Source: Zingiber officinale (Eukaryota; Streptophyta; Magnoliopsida; Zingiberales; Zingiberaceae). From it: DNA of 64,000 nt. Below, piece after piece: positions 2,281-55,650 of the stretch. Numbering within the stretch: position 1 is the stretch's first letter; each line of letters begins with the position of its first letter. Made by a program: the position numbers and the translations under genes. The notes under the pieces are model-generated. The model had not been told where the DNA came from and made no database searches. It was given only the letters and a program-made list of their open reading frames with translations. The DNA is taken from positions 32,070,011-32,134,010 of the forward strand of contig NC_056000.1 in NCBI RefSeq assembly GCF_018446385.1, read 5' to 3'.

Positions 2281-5200
2281 ATGGAGACGTCATCTTCCCC
2301 TTCGTCTTCTTCCTCATCCTCCTCCTCCTTTGCCATCACGAGCACCCACACCACATATACCTCCACCTCCAGCGGCGGCGGCGGCGGCGTGCACATCCCA
2401 GTGGAGATCGTGAGCGAGGAAGAGATGGCGTTCATTGAAGCTGCCCTGGCCTCCACTCGCCCCTTCCTCGCCTCTTCCGCTTGCCCCTCTTCTTCCTCCC
2501 GATTCGCCCTCTTCTCTTCCCTTACCTCCATCCTCCCCTGCTCCTCCGTTCCGCCGACCTCCCCCGGGCCTCGTTCCTTCGCCACGTCGTCGGACATTGA
2601 GGATACCGTCCCGCCGACCTCCCCCGGGTCTCGTTCCTTCGCAACGTCTTCGGGCATTGAGGATATCGTCCCGCCTAGATCCTCCCTTCTCGATCAATTT
2701 CGATCCAAAAGGGGGCTTTCCGTTACTGACTTCACTTCCACGGTAGGTTTCGTAAGGTTGATCGTCGTCAATTATCTGCCCAAAATGTTGTTTCTTTCCA
2801 TTTCAATTGTCGATGTTGTTAAGCTACTTTGGATTAAAGATTTATGAATTTGTTTCCACCTATGTTCATCTATCCATCTATTCCATTCTATAGGATGTTC
2901 ATTTCTCTTTGCTCTTTTGAGATGTCATTTTACTGATCCTTATCTGGAGTGCTATTAATATCAGGAATGGTGCGAAAAGCAAATGGAGTTTTTGCTTCAT
3001 TGGGGAAAGCCAAAGAGAACTGAAGCTATGAAAGCTGGTTCTGATCGTCATAGCCAACTCGAAAAGGAGGTGAGTCGTTGAAAGAGACGATCATGCAAAA
3101 TTTTCATAAATCCCAACATTCCTCTTTTGTAAATTGTGTGAAACTGATTCACTAAATTTAAGATGCCTAATCTCATTTTTGAAGTATAATGAATTCTCAT
3201 GAATATTTATCAATTTTCTAGTTTGTGGGAATAGGAACTGGAATTTCAAATCTAGAACACTAAATTATACTCGTATAGTTGTATGTTATGTTATAGATCA
3301 TGTAAAGAAGTAAATTAGATGAAGACATATAAGTGTTAGAACCCTAATTTCTGATGAATCTAAGGAATCTATGAAACACTGGCAATGTTTTTTGTAGTTG
3401 AAATTTCAATTCTTTTAACTGTTAGCATCCTAATTTCCAAGTTCTTTATCATCTCAAAGCAGAAAATCACTAAAAGTATAGAACTGGAATTTTAATTCCA
3501 TAATTTTATTAGTAGACTTGATGTTTTTGATTTTTTTTATTTGTGGATGTTGCGGTCTGGATGAGCTTTAAGTAAACACACATAGCTGCTTTACTTGCAC
3601 ATGAATTTTAAAACACATACTTACTTTTTTTATGCAACCTACTATACTTTATTAGCTCTAAATCTGAATCTTGTGTATTAGATGGTAACTTTAAGAGTTC
3701 TACAATTTGCCATCTGTTAGTTTGTGTCTCTTTTGTGTTGGAAGTTAATGAAAAGAAATGGTACTTATATTTTTTAGCTTAAGATTTAACAGGTGTCAGA
3801 AAAGATTGAACTTCATATTAAGACTATTGAAGATTCTTGGGCAATAAGATTGATGAACTTCATTGTCGGCACAAACCATTTATTATTTGAAGGCATAACC
3901 CGTGAGCTTCCTGTGTATGTATACATTTTATTATTGGTAATTCACTGTTGTCAGAGTGATAGAAGAGACATTTATGTAGTAGTTATTATCAGTTCTTTTT
4001 GCTTCGGTTTCTCCTACACTTGGTTAGTTGGGCTTGTGATAGGAGATAATGGATGGCTGCAACTTTAGCATGGAATCCTGCATAGGATAACATCTTATCT
4101 TTGACTGAAAAGGAATATCTTACATTAATTTCCTCAAATAGCTATTTTTGAAGGTATATTTCTAAAGGTTTGATGATACTAGAGAGGGGTTATTATCTTT
4201 TAGGTGAATGAGATAGGGGAGTTATTACTATAATGGTGATCTGATCAGGTGACCCTTTATCCTGAAAAAATAAATTGTATATATTTGACTCATGATTTGC
4301 CTTATATCAGAGTTGGAGTTATTGAAGGTGTATGGATGGTGGGAGTAATTGATGAAATTAGGATCTCAAGAGATGGAGGTGCTGGTTTACCTTTGTTGGT
4401 GGATACAAAGACACGTCTTAAAGCAACAGTACCTTCCGCAGCACAAAAGAGAAATGGAAGGTAATTTTTTCTTTTGTATATACTTCGTTTTTTTAATCTG
4501 CTGATACTAATCTCACATGTATTAGGAATTCTGTATCATTTGTAACTGTCATCAGCAGTTTTCAAAGAAGGTTGTTTCACTATTCCCATGAAGAAGTTGT
4601 GTATGCATGTTTTCAGTCATTGTCTAGTTAATAATGTTGTGAAATTTCTATGTTCGCACAAAGATAGGTGAGTTAGATATCCAGCAGCAAACTTTGGACC
4701 ATGAATCTAACTGGTCCAGTAAATTATTATATCAAATTCGTATGAACAAGTTGCAATTTGTAAAATTGACTTATCTTGAAGACGTTCCTAGCTCTGTAAA
4801 TGTCCAATTTCAAAAAGATTTTGCAAACTCATGACACATTCACATGGGAAATGTTGGCAATAGAGGATAATGAAGCTCTAATCTAGTCACCTGCTTTAGG
4901 ACAAAAAGGGATTTTGTTGTTAGAACTATCTGTCCTACTCCAATTTTTTTTCCTTTTTTTTTTTTCTGGAAAGAGGTTGAGAATACAAGAGCAAAATTAC
5001 TGATCTTGTCCGAGCGCTGAGTCGACGGACGCTGGGGACGTGGTACTCTCCGCTGTCTCCGACTGGTGGTGTAGATCTCCGGCGAATCTGCAAAGAAGCC
5101 GAGCCGGGAGGGGTTTCTCGGCGACGACCTTCCAACGCTCAAGTCAGGCAGCGAAGAAGCAGAGTAACGTTACTCCTACAGTGATCAAGATTGCATACAT

Positions 5201-8200
5201 TCGTCGAAGTCTAGGGGTCCTTATATAGGACCCCGGGAGGCGTGGGCACGCTTCTCGATGTGTGCATGCTTCCCCAAACATATCTCAGTAGGGTTGTGTC
5301 AGAAAAGCATGCCTGACGCCATTCCGCAATCGTCCGAGCATATCCCGGATGTGACGGTGGAAGATTCCACCGTACGATACTCTGTCCGCTCCGGCCGTCG
5401 ACCATGCTGTTTGTCGGCGGCAGGTGTCTCGAGGATGAAGCTACCAGCTGTCCTTTTTGTCTTCTAGCGTTTCCACCTGCTTCCTGGCCGAGCGGACACT
5501 TCGCTCGGCGCTCTTGGTTTCCGGGAATGCGCCTACCTTGGCCCGGGCGGTGAAGCCCTACTTCTGTGCTCGGATGGAATTGCGCCTTATTGTCATGCGG
5601 CTCCGCTCGACCCATAGACTCTACTTGAGCGTCGGAAACCCGACCCCTAGTCGGGCTGTCTGTCTTTCGTTCGGTCCGGGAGACCCTTGGTCGGATGTCC
5701 GCTCGGCATGACCTCTGTCCGTTCGGCACGACCTTGGGGTTGACTTCCTTGACCGTTGACCTCCACGTGTCGTTGACCTCCCGCCAATGAGGGTCCCCCG
5801 TCCTTACCACCGGATCACATGCCTCCCCCTCAAGTCTAGTCGAAGGAGGCGCTAAGTCCGACTGACTGGACTATGAGTTTAATCGAGCGACATCTACTCT
5901 GCCGCTCCTGATAGTGTACCTCCGTTCGGCTATAGGGAGGTCCAATCGGCCGACCGGCAAGTTGATGGCTATGCCTCGGTAGTTTTGATTTGTATTCACC
6001 GTTTGTCGCGCTACCGTTTTTAAGGACAGTTGGGTCTCCTCGGAATTCGCGTCAATCCTCATTAAGTTGCCCACGCGCGAGTAATGATGTTCATTAAATG
6101 CTGCCCCATCACTGATTGCCACCTGGCAAGTCCGCCGTCATCGTACGGCGAGGGCGTCATCTTCGATGGGACAGATGTCGGTTCAAATCCGACGGTCCGA
6201 TGCCGACGTTCTTTTCGATAACCTGGATCGAACGGTTGCTGTGGACTAAGCCCCGGGTTTATGAAGCGCCGATGCTGATCTTCCTCCTATCGTTCTTGCC
6301 TTCGTGCTTTTGGTGATTCCTCTCGTATCCAGTTTCCCGACGTTCGTTTGCCTCGGCGCCCCGACGAACTTTCGACCTCCCTCTTCTTCACGCTTCGCCT
6401 CCCAGTAAGCCTTCTCCTATCTTTACCTTTTTCTGTGTTCTTCATTCCGGTGGCCTTTGCGCCTATTCAATACAATTCCGACCTCCTCCGTCAACCCTTT
6501 CATTCTTTCTTCCTTTCTTCCTCGGTATTGTCCCGGCGATGGCTAGCACTTCGCAACCTTCTGATCCTTCTCCTGGCCTATGGTATATGACCATGGTAAG
6601 CCGGTTTGACTAGGATGACGCGGGACGCTTCCTTCACGAATTCGAACTTCCTCCTGACCATAGATTAGTTTTGGCCACCTCTTCCGATCGGACCCACAAT
6701 CCGTCGGCCGACACTGTTTGTTTCTTTCGCGACCAATTTGTGGCCGGCCTACGCTTCCCCATACATCCTTTTATCCGTGAAGTTTGTAATTATTTTCGCC
6801 TCCCGCTTGGTCAACTTGTCCCCAACTCTTTTAGGTTGCTCTGCGGCGTAGTGATCCTTTTCAAGCTGCACGGCATTCCCTTAGTCCCCAGAGTGTTCCA
6901 TTATTTTTACTATCCCAAACAGTCCGAGTGGGGTACTTTTCTCTTCTAATCGCGGATCGGTCTTGTCTTTTTCGACAAGATACCGACCTCGAACAAGCAC
7001 TGGAAGGAAAATTATTTTTACCTTCGCTTTCCCGAACGGCCATCCTTTCGCACCAAATGGCAGACCAATGTGCCGAGCCCGCCGGACGTTGGTAAATACA
7101 AGAGCCAGCCGGATTATCTTCATGCAGCCAATCTATTAGCCGACCAGAGGTTCAGTATCAATAAGCTACTTCACGAGGGGGTGTTGTACATATTCGGATT
7201 GAGTCCGATCCGAACGAAGCTTCCGAGCACCATGGGTAAGCGCTTTCCCTGTCCCCGCTCCTTTTGGTCTAACTGATTTATTCTTCTTTTATGCAGCTGA
7301 CATCATGTGGCGCCAAGGCCACCGAGCGGATGAAATTGAAGGCCGCCGAAATAGAAGCAGCAGCGGCTAAGGAGATGGCCGATCTGGGTATCGCGCTAGT
7401 TGGCTCGCATGAGGGCGAGAGCGAAGAGGCTCCAACAGAGGCCCGAGAGTCTACCGGTTGGATCCCTGTAACCAGAGCGATCGGTGATGCTATCTCGTCA
7501 GCCGGTCAGCCTACCTCCGAAGACGTGGGTCAGTCGGCCGACGACTCCCCCTTGATAACACACAAACGTTGTCGAACGGATCTCACATTTGTGGAACCAG
7601 TGACCGAGCCAGTTGACGCCCCCTCTGAAGCGGTCAACCCAGTCCCTGCTTTAACCGAGGCCATCTCTTCGGACCGAACTCCTTCCCAGCTCGACCAACC
7701 AGCGGCCTCCCTCGAAGCACGACCCGTTAGTTCCCTGCCCCGGGTTCGTCTCCGGCTCAGGCGCTTAGGAATAGTTTCTGCTCCGCTCGGCGAGTCATCC
7801 GGTCGATCCATCTCTTCTCAATCCGATCCGAGCGGGCGTCGAACGATCAAGGCCGTCCTCCATCTTCCCACTGAAGAGTTCCTTTTGGCCGCTGATCGGC
7901 CAACTGCTCCGGAGCATCAGGTCACCATCCGAGGACCGCTTGCCAAAGTATGGGAAGATGCGAGGGCTCGCGTTGCCTTGATGACCCCCGGGCAACTCGG
8001 CGATAGCCATCTACAACAAGCAACCGGGGTATGCTCTTTAACCTACTGTATGCTTAATCTTGGTTCTTAACATTATTCCGTCCGAACGGTACTGGGTGGA
8101 GAACATTGTGGTCAGCAATCGCCTGGCTGCCCTGGAGGAAGAATTAAAAAAGCTTCAAATTTTCGGAGGGGCGCCAGCGCAGGGGACATCATACGCCATG

Positions 8201-47959: not shown

Positions 47960-47964
47960 TATAT

Positions 47965-49408
47965 TGTTGGTGCAATATTCCCTAGGTCAAGGTTGACCTG
48001 TTTGACTGGGCTTGAAGTGAGTCAAGCTCGAGTATTGATGATTTGGTTTTGATGTTTGACAATACTTGTAGACAACACATGAACATTGCAGGTGCAATTG
48101 TTCATGTGGGGAGACTGTGAAGGAGAGTCAAGTAGGTCAAAGTTGATTGGATACTTGACTGAAAATCCTAGTGAGTGAAGCTAGGTGAAAGTTATGGTGA
48201 GTGAAGTCAGGCAGAAGGAAACCCTAGTGAGTGAAGCTAGGGGAAAGTCTGGTGAGTGAAGCCAGGCAGATGCGAAGACCTAGTGAGTGAAGCTAGGCAG
48301 AAGGGAAATCCTGGTGAGTGAAGCCAGGTGAAAGTCCTGGTGAGTGAAGCCAGGCACGGGGAAATCCAGATGGGTCAAGGTTGATCAGACATCTGGTGAA
48401 AGTCCAAGTAGGTCAAAGGGATTGACCGGATACTTGGCAAGAGGAGAAAAGTCCAAGTGGGTCAAAGGGATTGACCAGACACTTGGTGAGAGAGTCCTAG
48501 CTGGTCAAGGGTGACCGGATGCTAGGTTCTATGTACCAAAAAGTCATGGTTGACTGGATGTTGGTTTAGGGGGCTTTGTACTTGCTTTTGGGCAAAAACC
48601 AAGATCTGGATTGATCAGCAGATCGATCCAGCAGATCTGGATCGATCAGCCGATCGATTGGATCATGCCCAATCGATCAGCTGATCGATCGGGTGAGTCC
48701 CCATGAACAGAACCCCTTTGGATCGATCCAGAGGTCCCAATCGATCAGTGGATCGATTGGGAGCTGCTGTTTGTGCGCAATAAGCCTTGGATCGATCAGC
48801 CGATCGATCCAGGCTATTCCAGAGAGCACAGAGGAATTCTAGATCGATCAGTTGATCGATCCAAAGCCTCCCCGATCGATTGGGAGCAATCCAATCAATC
48901 GGGATCCGACCATTGGCGTCGTATTTAGATGCAGGCGAGCGTTTCCTTCAGTAGTGCTCACACGATTAATCTCCGATCTTCACCAGCGACTCCACAGCTC
49001 TCTCTCAAGTTCAGATCGCCATTTCTTGAAGATTCTTGGAGGTTCTTCCAAGTCAAGACGCGGATCAAAAGTAAGAAGAGAAGTTAGGGTTAGGGTTTAT
49101 TGTAAGCTTTTGCTTGTATTTCATATCCTTTCCTTTCTTCTTGTATTGAGAGTTTGTAAAGGCTTCTCCGCCTTCGGTAGTTACCGTAGAGGAGTGTGCT
49201 TCATAGTGGAGGGTGCGTGAGTGTGAGGATCCTTGGATTAGTCACCTCTTGTGAGGTGGATACCAAGTAAAATCTATTTATTAGCGTTGTATTTTGTTTC
49301 TTGTACATTTCCGCTACATATCTTTGAAGAAACAAGCAACGCCAACCACGAAGCACGCGACGAGCTATTCACCCCCCCCCCCCCTCTAGCTACTTTTCGG
49401 TCCCAACA
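47965..49408 (+). repeat. 5' LTR of the 47-55 kb copia element
   Basis: 1444 bp. It carries three hairpin classes: GAGTGAAG loops (48167-48357), GGTCAA/TTGACC inner stems (48125-48166 and 48361-48540) and GATCGATC palindromes (48604-48900). Confidence 0.93.
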
Positions 49409-49543
49409 AGTGGTATCAGAGCCAGGTCGCTCTTCACCGGAATCATCGCCGGAAGGGGCAAACAAAACAAGCAAAGCTAGAGGGTGAAGAAGTTGGAGCA
49501 ATTCTACAAGTCGAAGACTTCATCACAAGAAGCTCAACTTCAA

Positions 49544-51343
49544 ATGGAATTCCGAGATGGACTCAAATTCGACACGAGGGTGCCTCCACCATATGCTTCA
49601 ACAAGCTTTGATCTTTGGAAATCAAGGATCGAAAACTTCCTAATGGTAGAGATAGAGCAATGGTTTGCTCTAATGGAAGGATTTGAGGCTCCCACAAATT
49701 CCAAGGGCAAAGTACTCAAGAGGAGCAAGTGGAGCCAAGACCAAATCCAAAGATGTGAGGCCAATGACAAAGTGACCAAGCTTTTGGTCAATTTATTGCC
49801 GAGCAACATCTTGGAGAAAATAGGAGAATTTGAAGATGCCAAAGAGCTATGGAGCAAATTGGCAAAGATTCATGAGATCCCCTCCACTGTACAAGATCAA
49901 GAAGAATCCAAAGAGGGTGACTCATTAGATCAAGACCAAGAGGAGGAAGACTCCGAGGTTGAGAGATGCTCAACTTCCGAAGAAGAAGTCCAAGAAGAAG
50001 CTTCATCTTCAAGGGAATGCAATGAAGGGAACAAGGAGGGAGCATACTCCTTGTTCCATGTATAAGATGATGAAGCCTCCACCTCTAGGATTGAGGGGGA
50101 GCACTTTTTGGTGACACCGGATCAAGAAGAAGGAGAAGTCTCCACATCCGGGTCAAGAAAAGAAGAGGATGAAGAAGCTTCCACCTCCACAAGTCAAGAC
50201 AAATCTAATGGAGGAGCATCACTATCGGATCAAGAGGAAGCCTCTACATCCACATCACATAGAGGACCAAATACCATCCCTATACAAGAAGGTATAAACA
50301 TTTCAATTAAAAGTAAGAATCATATTATATGTTTTAAGTGTAGGGAGAATGGGCACTACAAGAGCAAGTGTCCCAACTTGGCCAAGAAGAAGAGCTAAGT
50401 GGCACCCAAGGGCAAGGAGAAGCTCAAGGAGACCATCCCCGGAACAAAAAGAAGCAAGGAGCACATTGTGTGTTTTTTTTGCAATCAAAAGGGACATTAC
50501 CAGAGTCAATGTCCAAAGGGAAAGAAGGTGGTCAAGGCTCAAGGAGGAAGCTCAACTCAAGGGGGAGCCTTCAAGGTAAAAAGAAAGGTAACTTTTATTG
50601 AGCCTACCCCTTTAAATTATGGTAAAAAGCATGCTAGTTCTAACCTATATCATTTTAATGTTATTTACCATGAGAATAGGAGGCATGACAAAGTTAAGGA
50701 AAGTCATGTAGCTTATCATGCTAAGACCTCTCAACCTAGGTTTAGAAAGGTAGATAGGAACTTAGGCAAGAACCCTAAGGATTCTAGGTATGTGCCTAAG
50801 AAGAAGAAAAATCAAGGTTTTAGTGAAAAACCTAAGGTTGAAGAATTATGGAAGGAAAATCAAGTCTTGAGGTCAAGACTTGATAAATTAGAGAGGACTC
50901 TTAGAAAAATCACGAATATAACACAAGGGTCCAAGAGTCAAAACCTAAGTCTAGGAGTACAACAAGGGTCATCAAATGGTCATAGAGGTTTGGGATACAA
51001 ACCTAAGGCTAAAAAGGATGAAGTGTCTTACCATAGCGTTCCATATAGTTATGGAACCAACCCTAGGTCTGAGGGGCAAGCCAAAAATACTAGGGAGGTC
51101 ATCCTTAAGAGTATTTTTACAACTAAAGTGACTAAGACTTCTAAGAAATCTAATAAAGTCACTAAAAAAGTCACAAGGGAAGAAATCCCTAGGGTTGACC
51201 TAGAAAAGGTGACCAAGGCTTCTAAGAAGCCAAACAAGGTCACTAGGAAGGTATCTAGGGAAGTTATCCCTAGTGAATACCTAGAGCATCCAAGGAGCAC
51301 CAATAGGTTTTGGGTTCCTAGGAGCATCTTCTCTACCCCATAG
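49544..51343 (+). mobile_element. gag-like region with two CCHC zinc knuckles
   Basis: First ATG at 49544 (MEFRDGLKFDTRVPPPYAST). The Gag core (LWKSRIENFLMVEIEQW, DAKELWSKLAKIHE) is followed by an acidic Ser/Glu-rich part. Two CCHC knuckles follow: CFKCRENGHYKSKC and CFFCNQKGHYQSQC. The rest is basic with KVTKxSKKxNKVTKKV-type repeats. The region looks broken about once. Confidence 0.87.
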
Positions 51344-53666
51344 ATGGGTTAGAGAGTGTTAACTCTAAGGAGAAGGGTAGTTAACCCAACTTTGAAGAAA
51401 TTGACACTCAAAGAGCATTTTCAAGGTTATTATTAACCTTTGAAAATGAAGTAGATTTATGATTTACTCTTTAAAAGAGTATAATGTGTCATATTTTGAG
51501 AAATTGGATGAAATTCTAAGTGACACAATTTGAGAAAATCATAAGAAATACCAAGTTGAGATTTTGGTATTTTCTTAGTGCTAATCTTGTGGAAAAATGA
51601 AATATGCCAACATTTGAGGAATAATGCTTAATTTCAATTGGCATAAGTTAATCAAGAGAATTAGAAATATCAATTTAGTTTTTGGCATTTTCTTGAAGCA
51701 CTTTGGACAAATCTAGGTTAGATTTTAAGCTAGCTAAGGGTTAAGGATACTTAGGTAGGTAATCTAGGTATTTTATCTATGCTAACTTGCCATGATTTGT
51801 TTGCTCATTATATGTCATGACATCATATTTAGTTTTGTATTTTGCACTCATGCCTTATTATGAAAATACAAAAATATCATGTCATGCATTCATACATCAT
51901 GTAGCTATAGGAATCTTTCTTTTGAAAGCTATTTCATTTTGATGTATGCCATAACATATCATGCATTATTTTTCATTCCTTAAAATTAAGGACAAATGAC
52001 ATTTATCAACAAGTACAAACAAGTGGTAGCAAGAGGTACAAGTGTATCAACAAGTGACATCCTAGGTGGATGTTCAATATCTACAAAATGTCTAAATAGA
52101 TATGCATGATCCCTAGATTAGGATAAAACCAAATTTTACATCTCACAAAGACCTATAAGATGACTTGTATGTGTTTTGTGCACAATAGATACAAGTGAGA
52201 TGTTAGGATGATGAACAAAACTCAATATGCTGATTTAGTGCATTCTTTTGAGTTTTAAGTTCATCAAAACACATAGTTATGTGTTTTCCCATCATTGGGA
52301 AAGCTAATGTACAAGTCATGTGCATTAAGCCCAAGGAACATGGTGGGATATTGGGTTTTAAAATCGTTTTAAAATGCTTTTGGAAAACCTTGGTGAAGGC
52401 TATCTTTTGATAGTAATCATCATTGAATAGTTAGACACAAACTAGAAGAAAACACTAAAGTGTTTGTAAGTTCTCTAGTTTGTGTCAATCTTGAAAAATA
52501 TGAAGTATTTTCTTATAAAATTATTTTTCCATGATAATATATGCCCTAAATAATGTCTACACAAATTTTCACAAGTTTTGGATTTTTGTAGATTTTTCTA
52601 GGGGTTTTTGAAGTTGACTGAAATGGAATTTCAGTAACTATCAGAACTCCAATCGATCACCCGATCGATTGGAGTGTCTCAATCAATCGACCGATCGATT
52701 GAGAAGGCTATTCTCGCGAGCAGAAGCTCGCTGGATCGATCAGTCGATCGATCCAGACTGGCTGAATCGATCAGTGGATCGATTCAAAGTAGTTCAATCG
52801 ATTGAGACCCAACTCCAATCGATTGAGGAAGCTGATTTTGGGTGGGAAAGCCTGATTTCAGCATTCCAAACCAGGTTTAGTCGAGGTAACCATTCCAAAC
52901 CCATCAAAATATATTTTTATACATAAAAAGGGTGTTTTCATGTTGAAAACAAAGATGGATTGGTTGGGGAAGACTAAATTGAAGTTTAGGTTGAGGTTTG
53001 GTTTCAATATTGAATGTTTGAACCTCAAAACTTCTAAATTTAGGTTTGCTAAAGGTTTAGGGATTCCAAGTCATTGTTGGTGCAATGACAAAAGGTACGA
53101 CCATGTCTTCAGGGGGAGTTACTCTTTAAGGACATGAAAATTATTTTTCATACACCTTGGGAGGTGGTTAACCTTCTTTTAGAGAAAATGCTCAAGGTTG
53201 GGCATTGAAATTAATAGGGAGTGGATATCCTCATTGTTTAAGTGGAGTTTGCTCATGGATGAGTATTTGATAAAAAAAATGAAGGGTATGGGACCTTCAT
53301 TTGGGTTATCCAAGTGGTTAATGCTCAAGGGTGAGTATTGATGATAATAAAGGGTATGGGATCTTTATTATCGTGTTGATCACAACGAGTGAAGTTGTGA
53401 ACAACGATAAGCAACTCTTCAGGGGGAGAGGTTGTGGTTGATGTGTGCCCAAAGATGGGGGCATGTTTATGATGTGTGCCATTAGGGGGAGAATGCATGG
53501 TTAAGTTATGCCTTCAGTACCTAAAGGGGGAGTTTGCCCTCTAGAAAAGGAGAAGAATCGAGGGAACCATCATTCAGATATTGGCATGAAGGGAGTTGAG
53601 GCTATGGGATTAGCCTAATTTCCTAACTTAACATGTGGTATTGTCAAACATAAAAAAGGGGGAGAT
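51344..53666. other. Non-coding interior of the 47-55 kb copia element
   Basis: Occupies the place of pol but shows no protease, integrase, RT or RNase H motif. At 52649-52815 it has the same kind of GATCGATC palindromes as the LTRs. Confidence 0.75.
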
Positions 53667-55139
53667 TGTTGGTGCAATATTCTCTAGGTCAAGGTTGACC
53701 TGTTTGACTGAGCTTAAAGTGAGTCAAGCTCGAGTCTTGATGATTTGGTTTCGATGTTTGACAATACTTGTAGACAACACATGAACATTGCAGGTGCAAT
53801 TGTTCATGTGGGGAGACTATGAAGGAGAGTCAAGTAGGTCAAAGTTGACTGGATACTTAACTGAAAATCCTGGTGAGTGAAGCTAGGTGAAAGTCATGGT
53901 GAGTGAAGCCAGGCAGAAGGAAACCCTAGTAAGTGAAGCTAGGTGAAAGTCCTGGTGAGTGAAGCCAGGCAGATGAGAAGACCTAGTGAGTGAAGTTAGG
54001 AAGAAGGAAAATCCTGGTGAGTGAAGCCAGGTGAAAGTCCTGGTGAGTGAAGCCAGGCACGGGGAAATCCAGATGGGTCAAGGTTGACCAGACATCTGGT
54101 GAAAGTCCAAGTAGGTCAAAGGGATTGACCGGATACTTGGCAAGAGGAGAAAAGTCCAAGTGGGTCAAAGGGATTGACCAGACACTTGGTGAGAGAGTCC
54201 TAGCTAGTCAAGGGTGACCGGATGTTAGGTTTTATGTACCAACAAGTCATGGTTGACTGGATGTTGGTTTAGGGGGCTTTGGACTTACTTTTGGGCAAAA
54301 ATCAAGATCTGGATTGATCAGTGGATTGATCCAGCAGATCTGGATCGATCAGCCGATCGATCCAGCAGATCTGGATCGATCAACCGATCGATTGGATCAT
54401 GCCCAATCGATCAGCTGATCGATCGGGTGAGTCCCCACGAACAGGGATCGATCCGTGGATCGATCCAGAGGTCCCAATCGATCAGTGGATCGATTGGGAG
54501 CTGCTGTTTGTGCGCGATAAGCCCTGGATCGATCAGCCGATCGATCCAGGCTATTCCAGAGAGCACAGAGGAATTCTGGATCGATCAGTTGATCGATCCA
54601 AAGCCTCCCCGATCGATTGGGAGCAATCCAATCGATCGGGATCCGACCGTTGGCGTCGTATTTAGCTGCAGGCCGGTGTTTCCTTCAGTAGTGCTCACAC
54701 GATTCATCTCCGATCTTCACCAGCGACTCCACAACTCTCTCTCAAGTTCAGATCGCCAGTTCTTGAAGATTCTTGGAGGTTCTTCCAAGTCAAGAGGCGG
54801 ATCAAAAGCAAGAAGAGAAGTTAGGGTTAGGGTTTATTGTAAGCTTTTGCTTGTATTTCATATCCTTTCCTTTCTTCTTGTATTGAGAGTTTATAAAGGC
54901 TTCTCCGCCTTCGGTAGTTACCGTAGAGGAGTGTGTTTCATTGTGGAGGGTGCGTGAGTGTGTGGATCCTTGGATTAGTCACCTCTTGTGAGGTGGATAC
55001 CAAGTAAAATCTATTTGTTAGCGTTGTATTTTGTTTCTTGTACATTTCCGCTGCACATCTTTGAAGAAACAAGCAACGCCAACCACGAAGCACGCGACGA
55101 GCTATTCACCCCCCCTCTTGCTACTTTTCGGTCCCAACA
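53667..55139 (+). repeat. 3' LTR of the 47-55 kb copia element
   Basis: 1473 bp. It matches 47965-49408 with an extra GATCGATC palindrome unit and the same hairpin classes (53868-54058, 54063-54235, 54303-54645). Confidence 0.93.
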
Positions 55140-55650
55140 TATATTTTTCACAGTCGTGTAGGTTGTGTATGTAGGTCCCGTGTGGCCGATAAGAGGGGGT
55201 GAATTGCCCTGCACAATAAAAATAAGTATACCTTTTTCAAACTCTTGGGCTTAAACAATTACACACTTAACAAAAAGATAATGAAATCAAAAGAGTATGA
55301 GACAAATAATTTTACTTGGTTTGTAATCAGAGAATTGCTACTCTAAGGAAACTAGGCTCACTATGAATATCTCCTTCTCGAACAAAACATCTGAAGTGGA
55401 GAAGCCTCATACACGAAAATGAAGCTTGGAAATGAAAAACAGAACGAATTTCATAGTACAGAAGTGTGTTTATAAAAATGAAGAATATCAGGGCTATATT
55501 TATAGCTCACTAGTCGAATCTAATAGTTGGCTGACGTGGCATGATCCGGGTGTTCAGACCCTCTTCAGGAGCCCCAGCATGGAAAAACTCTATCTCCATG
55601 CAACGACCAAGTGATAAAGTTTTATCCATCTCTGGGAGCCCGGACCATTG

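Follow-up and report, generated by a model that had tools for sequence, protein, structure and literature searches.

A hairpin array in the LTRs of a Sirevirus-type copia element of Zingiber officinale, apparently non-random and in part under constraint

Introduction

Why should the LTR of a retrotransposon carry a row of short hairpins whose cores are alike and whose outer arms differ from one hairpin to the next, yet match within each? The question is raised by a 64,000-nucleotide stretch of the Zingiber officinale genome (here called the window; NCBI RefSeq assembly GCF_018446385.1, contig NC_056000.1, positions 32,070,011 to 32,134,010, forward strand), which is part of contig C15; the assembly comprises 211 contigs that total 3.09 Gb. 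An initial annotation, made from the letters alone, had noted three successive classes of inverted repeat in the LTR of a copia element, had taken joint change of the outer arms as a sign of selected secondary structure, and knew of no described element of this kind. All coordinates below are positions in the window.

Palindromic LTRs are an established trait of Sirevirus elements. In the sections of Bousios et al. (2010; PMC2829016) used here, palindromic LTR ‘repeated motifs’ are recorded in 13 of 21 published elements, as high-copy sequences upstream of the TATA box, some elements having further copies in the linker, where they accompanied an envelope-like gene; the other traits given there are a polypurine octamer 10 bp before the 3' LTR, octamer copies in the linker, an AT/TG attachment site and a poly-C run. 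The LTR palindromes of maize Sireviruses are summarized, in the sections used of two later papers, as a fast-evolving, small-RNA-rich cis region with strong predicted folding (Bousios et al. 2016, via PMC10760457, PMC5311732), and why elements keep palindromes that invite silencing is treated as conjecture (PMC10760457, same section). In the related genus Amomum, SIRE-lineage copia elements are described as prevalent (PMC11066291, in the part consulted).

Results

The host element

The array lies in an LTR element spanning 47965-55139, flanked by the target-site duplication TATAT (47960-47964 and 55140-55144). Its features, other than the array of the 5' LTR, are as follows.

47965..49408, + strand: 5' LTR, TGTTGG...CCCAACA, 1444 bp
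48922..48929, + strand: TATA-like site TATTTAGA, just 3' of the class c palindromes; putative promoter element
49372..49384, + strand: poly-C run near the LTR 3' end, the Sirevirus integrase signal
49411..49422, + strand: primer binding site tggtatcagagc, as read from the sequence
49481-50065, 50066-50398 and 50399-51343, + strand: gag region, three open stretches, stop-interrupted
52645..52833 (limits approximate), + strand: second class c palindrome cluster, in the linker from gag to the 3' LTR, with varied matched arms
53111, 53421, 53484, 53525 and 53657 (span 53111..53664), + strand: five AGGGGGAG polypurine octamers in the linker
53638..53651 (left arm) and 53754-53767 (right arm, in the 3' LTR), + strand: PPT-junction inverted repeat GTATTGTCAAACAT, 14 bp, perfect
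53667..55139, + strand: 3' LTR, carrying the same hairpin arrays as the 5' LTR

The primer binding site is, we presume, of the initiator Met-tRNA type. Over about the first 1.0 kb of the LTRs, 46 of 1034 aligned sites differ, and the array, as the initial annotation had said, recurs in the right LTR; the identity is 95-97%. Most of the LTR copies displayed have the TATA-like site 3' of class c (TTTATAG, GATATAG and GATAAAG being among the forms in some other copies), and since the hairpin arrays lie upstream of it, they would belong to U3.

Judged by these features, the element is of the Sirevirus type of copia and has gag-like frames, no pol having been found in it; a copia host had been proposed. 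The traits present are the octamer spacing, the octamer copies, the AT/TG site, palindromic motifs, the poly-C run and a CCHC Gag. The last octamer (53657-53664) sits exactly 10 bp before the 3' LTR at 53667, as in Sirevirus, the junction reads AGGGGGAG-AT-TGTTGG, and two extra octamers occur within the gag region (50094, 50560). An inverted repeat is present at the PPT junction, but its placement differs from the published one: between it and the octamer lie 5 A, and its right arm starts 87 bp into the LTR, as against a mean of 28 bp in the sections of PMC2829016 used.

Of the gag region, 50066-50398 and 50399-51343 hold one CCHC knuckle each; both zf-CCHC matches exceed the Pfam cut-off and Retrotran_gag_2 stays below it (23.6 bits, cut-off 27). 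No pol domain was matched by Pfam in 10 scanned of the 15 open stretches of at least 45 aa that overlap 51344-53640, so the roughly 2.3 kb between gag and the 3' LTR yielded no pol in the stretches scanned, and no envelope-like gene showed among the open stretches scanned with Pfam, a scan not aimed at such genes. TR-GAG elements are non-autonomous LTR elements that have LTRs and gag-like reading frames and are without pol. Set beside them by this general description, the element resembles them in its LTRs, gag-like frames and lack of a pol match, but differs in keeping the Sirevirus junction features.

As an observation apart, 49481-53666 holds gag-like frames and no pol was found there, though LTRs with the same hairpins are extremely numerous. 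A candidate autonomous partner, a 3.4-kb piece inside a 12-kb spaced LTR pair, was rejected, having by eye an opposite-strand gag-like frame and not pol; with opposite-strand hairpins flanking it on both sides, its sequence suggests a nested element.

Layout of the array

Thirteen hairpins of classes a and b and a cluster of ATCGAT palindromes (class c) fill 48127-48899, where the three classes had originally been placed.

48127..48159, + strand: b1, GTCAAGTA/TACTTGAC, inner GGTCAA..TTGATT (G·U pairs), 3-nt 3' bulge
48167..48354, + strand: class a array, 19-nt hairpins starting at 48167, 48193, 48223, 48248, 48279, 48310 and 48336, with purine-rich linkers
48366..48396, + strand: b2, CCAGATG/CATCTGG
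48404..48437, + strand: b3, CCAAGTA/TACTTGG
48453..48486, + strand: b4, CCAAGTG/CACTTGG
48496..48526, + strand: b5, CCTAGC/GCTAGG
48535..48565, + strand: b6, ACCAA/TTGGT, weaker and imperfect in the window copy
48602..48899, + strand: class c ATCGAT palindromes, Sirevirus-type repeated motifs

The seven class a units share the loop TGAGTGAAG and have arms CCTAG/CTAGG or CCTGG/CCAGG, two of them imperfectly (TATGG/TCAGG and TCTGG/CCAGG). Class b combines a variable outer stem with an inner stem of the GGTCAA/TTGACC type and, in the folds of five of its six hairpins, a 3-nt bulge on the 3' side only. The inner stem had been described as constant; the core type does recur, but the 3' arms of b1 and b2 read TTGATT and TTGATC in the window copy. 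A seventh class b-like core at the LTR start (47985-47998) has unmatched outer arms.

Two features of composition were also seen: purines on the + strand make up 75% of linkers and 61% of hairpins in 48127-48565, and the a/b array has a CpG observed/expected of 0.18, adjoining class c one of 0.94. A diverged LTR (L097) carries further hairpin-like units, CCAAGTATGGAGACTTGG and GAGAGGGCTCGGTAGCTCGTTCTC, that were not noticed in the window.

Comparison with shuffled sequence

Perfect arms of at least 6 nt with loops of 3-14 nt cover 182 of the 776 nt of the full array, compared with 26.6 +/- 17.2 (maximum 74) in 200 dinucleotide shuffles. Class c supplies most of this excess (146 nt alone vs 27.0 shuffled, maximum 90); classes a and b alone reach 36 nt vs 10.3 +/- 9.8 (maximum 40), which is not above all shuffles, their arms being only 5-8 bp and hence weakly registered by this measure. 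The entire stretch folds far better than its shuffles on either strand (z -10.9 on +, -11.7 on -, 20 shuffles each). Folded singly, 9 of the 13 a/b hairpins, three of the seven class a units among them, have z between -1.95 and -3.78, and b1 alone has an MFE of -10.3 (z -3.5). Searched with Rfam covariance models at E up to 1, the sequence gave 14 matches, none of which came near its gathering score.

Class c is of a published kind

Class c is the ‘repeated motif’ published for Sirevirus elements, and the statement that no such element had been described was wrong for this class. In Table 3 of PMC2829016, as far as the sections used extend, the Tnd-1 motif is ACAATCGATTGT, an ATCGAT-core palindrome, and the Osr8, Osr10 and Vitis motifs have CGGTC/GACCG; both cores occur in class c here. 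Some details differ from those sections: class c spacers measure 3-6 nt vs 0-1 nt for the published CGGTC motifs, and class c begins about 640 bp into the LTR vs 200-400 for the published motifs. The LTR palindromes of maize Sireviruses, in the sections consulted, likewise show strong predicted folding, but their motif CACCGGAC..GTCCGGTG differs from the hairpins here; they form a small-RNA hotspot, while what was read here is sequence.

Across 91 loci, one of them the 3' LTR in the window and the other 90 retrieved from the genome, the core of the window's family, ATCGATC..GATCGAT, is found in 315 hairpins and that of sister families, ATCGGTC..GACCGAT, in 54, with 6 + 5 mixed; 67 loci have only the first (A-T) form, 8 only the second (G-C), 6 both and 10 neither. 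The scarcity of mixed cores argues that the two sides of the core pair changed together between families. Within the family, none of six pairs variable on both sides was compensatory, so ongoing joint change of the arms was not supported there.

In 14 loci (L085, L086, L091-L096, L098, L104, L105, L107, L110, L111), palindromes of the GATCGGTC/GACCGATC type replace or stand beside those of the GATCGATC type, and the class a and b hairpins are unchanged in those read, as if U3 modules had been exchanged.

Class a: abundant, with covariation mainly from one change

Classes a and b, in which the loop or core is constant and the matched arms vary, with a bulge on one side and purine linkers, are absent from the motif table of PMC2829016 in the sections used, and no description of such LTR hairpin arrays or their covariation was found among the matches listed in the literature searched, in which subscription papers were partly covered. 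A similarity search with 48125-48900 gave 6,934 candidates at first look; 40 of them were scored. Genome-wide, pairs of the TGAGTGAAG loop 10-30 nt apart number 241,673, and the reversed pattern 7.

At the variable pair, exact class a units number 110,714 with G-C, 99,394 with A-U, 7,846 with G·U and 4,783 with A·C, Watson-Crick states making up 94.3% of the four. Taken as mass, repeated covariation this would support the original claim of arms changing together, but that interpretation was in the main rejected: a unit anchored by position, the last one ahead of b2, has G-C at 74 of 80 loci and A-U at 0 of 80. Class a arrays are strings of two unit types, many of them alternating A,G,A,G. On the strength of the anchored unit, class a covariation would mostly go back to one old double change, amplified.

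Class b: matched arms and compensatory change

In class b the claim of arms changing together fares better. The typical arms of the six class b paralogs are matched at every position, 42 of 42, against a permutation mean of 26.3, and of all 720 permutations only the true pairing reaches 42; the six types were hand-picked from the commonest forms, the unmatched LTR-start core was left out, 72 of 462 class b cores fell outside all six types, and b3 is a close paralog of b4, all of which favours pairing in this result. Among orthologous copies, class b has four stem pairs that vary on both sides, and two of these are compensatory, as against 49 of 3372 non-array column pairs (Fisher p 0.0013); linked column pairs give false compensation at 1.3-1.5% (100/7750, 49/3372).

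The b2 inner pair stands out. In 83 rows it is G-C 51 times, A-T 26, G·U 6 and A·C 0, and in 33 distinct sequences A-U 15, G-C 15 and G·U 3. Two-sided-change cells number 16 in b2; shuffling gives 4.5 on average, with 16 attained in 0 of 500 shuffles, and slid versions have no more than 2. But only two b2 pairs show any two-sided change, which 70 of 500 shuffles also reach. One pair of b5 is C-G 26 times and T-A 8 times (the b3 and b5 matches may include paralogs), and one pair of b6 is C-G 59 times and T-A 6 times, with other states too; in the b6 inner pair, which changes between A-T and G-C, the mixed states are A·C (10) and never G·U. These alignments point to modest orthologous compensatory change in class b, and partly support class b as a stronger case for covariation than class a.

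Constraint before and after insertion

The two LTRs of an element allow changes to be dated relative to insertion: those in one LTR (private) arose after it, and those in which both LTRs depart from the majority (shared) before it. Of 26 aligned LTR pairs, 23 were used, three being dropped as not true pairs. The counts are of cells, not independent events, and related elements inflate the shared class, so the p-values are optimistic.

The outer arms of class b have 30 shared and 29 private changes, vs 576 and 184 in control non-array LTR (Fisher p 8e-5); an alignment-based version gives 23 and 20 (p 0.002). They would thus have changed about threefold less than the control before insertion, and have decayed after it. 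Linkers have 67 shared vs 8 private changes. The inner stems of class b (46 vs 21, p 0.24) show no clear constraint, and its bulges (22 vs 8) and loops (33 vs 5) no clear difference from the control. Alignment-based shared/private ratios are 2.78 for the class a zone, which is not constrained as a whole, 1.95 for class c palindromes and 2.67 for class c spacers, against 3.13 in the control.

A unit-by-unit count, giving 16 shared vs 61.5 private changes in class a stems outside the variable pair, 12.5 vs 25 in class a loops and 17 vs 18 in class b outer arms, takes only units with few mismatches, which cuts shared changes, and is not leaned on for class a. Of the 26 LTR pairs, 15 were chosen from class a units with G·U or A·C, which biases class a counts and does not affect class b directly. 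Private changes converting one Watson-Crick pair to another on both sides after insertion account for 3.5 of 78 in class a, and in class b for 0 of 26, a rarity that argues against frequent arm-from-arm repair in host replication.

Wobble pairs

Single changes in class a give G·U over A·C at 7,846 vs 4,783 (1.64) and U·G over C·A at 4,083 vs 3,364 (1.21), an excess of wobble of about 1.4 once arm bias is cancelled. In an 88-row LTR alignment, however, C>T : G>A on the + strand is 1.38 at the LTR start and 1.40 in the LTR 3' part, 1.09 in a short third non-array stretch between b and c, 1.24 in the a+b region and 1.09 in class c. Since the strand bias matches the wobble excess in two of the three non-array stretches, the excess was withdrawn as a sign of RNA-level selection, and RNA-specific selection is not supported by these counts. 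Class b orthologs have 64 G·U vs 37 A·C, not clearly above the bias and not independent, and the private changes in the wobble comparison split 41 to 38. A + strand bias of about 1.4 could of itself mimic wobble-preserving evolution.

Discussion

The array is real, non-random and, it appears, in part under constraint, an elaboration of the Sirevirus U3 and not a new kind of element. We give about even credence to its being a structured U3 domain selected during retrotransposition, derived from the palindromic U3 of Sirevirus-type copia elements. During replication, selection would keep the class b outer arms matched and so slow their change, and once a copy has inserted the arms would decay freely; pairing, and not one sequence, would be what is kept, the arms differing between units. 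Arms that vary yet match, together with a one-sided bulge, suggest that the structure acts single-stranded; if, as we assume, the stretch is transcribed, the likeliest candidate is the 3' LTR's U3 within genomic RNA. Of the selected secondary structure first proposed, then, the constraint on class b outer arms before insertion stands, and selection specific to RNA is not supported.

It could be argued that concerted evolution is all there is, the class a types and a few class b units having arisen once and been amplified, so that copies are counted repeatedly. This is probably true of most of class a, given the anchored unit and the many alternating arrays, and linked columns do produce some false compensation. 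As the sole explanation of the array we hold it rather unlikely: several different matched arm pairs in class b are left unexplained, as are the substitutions in b2, b3 and b5 and the constraint on outer arms. For class b it is compatible with a selected U3 domain, and the confidences given here are not exclusive.

The palindromes might instead act as DNA, as sites for dimeric transcription factors that set LTR transcription, RNA pairing being a by-product. The GGTCAA/TTGACC core resembles paired W-boxes. A core of this GGTCAA..TTGACC type recurs across the class b types, the arrays lie upstream of the TATA-like site, and wobble shows no preference above background bias; a regulatory role for repeated motifs is raised as conjecture in the sections used of PMC2829016. 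We nevertheless consider such sites unlikely to be the explanation, since outer arms that vary between units and still match cannot all be read by a single factor, the 3-nt bulge is on one side only, the constraint falls on the outer arms more than on the core, and the class a loop, of 9 nt, is asymmetric.

Template switching in hairpins, which copies one arm onto the other and could mimic compensation without function, is described for DNA replication (PMC8794818, in the part used) and would need few events among plentiful palindromes to give the covariation seen, but is improbable here, as it alone predicts no deficit of arm relative to linker changes between elements and arm changes after insertion went unrepaired, a point that bears on host replication and not on reverse transcription.

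If a structured U3 domain is selected, the row of hairpins would present repeated loops and bulges to a binding protein, perhaps Gag or a host factor. More speculatively, and with low confidence, the genomic RNA may carry at its 3' end a modular domain formed by classes a and b together, with exchangeable matched arms and multiple binding sites. It is an equally tentative suggestion that these sites were selected for Gag, in packaging, or for a host protein, and are common to very numerous element families.

The class c kind was known, and for classes a and b we found no earlier description. LTR pairs supply records from both before and after insertion, and the constraint on class b outer arms would be confined to the former. 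With 241,673 close loop pairs in one genome, the costs and benefits of such structure to the elements may be testable on sequence alone.
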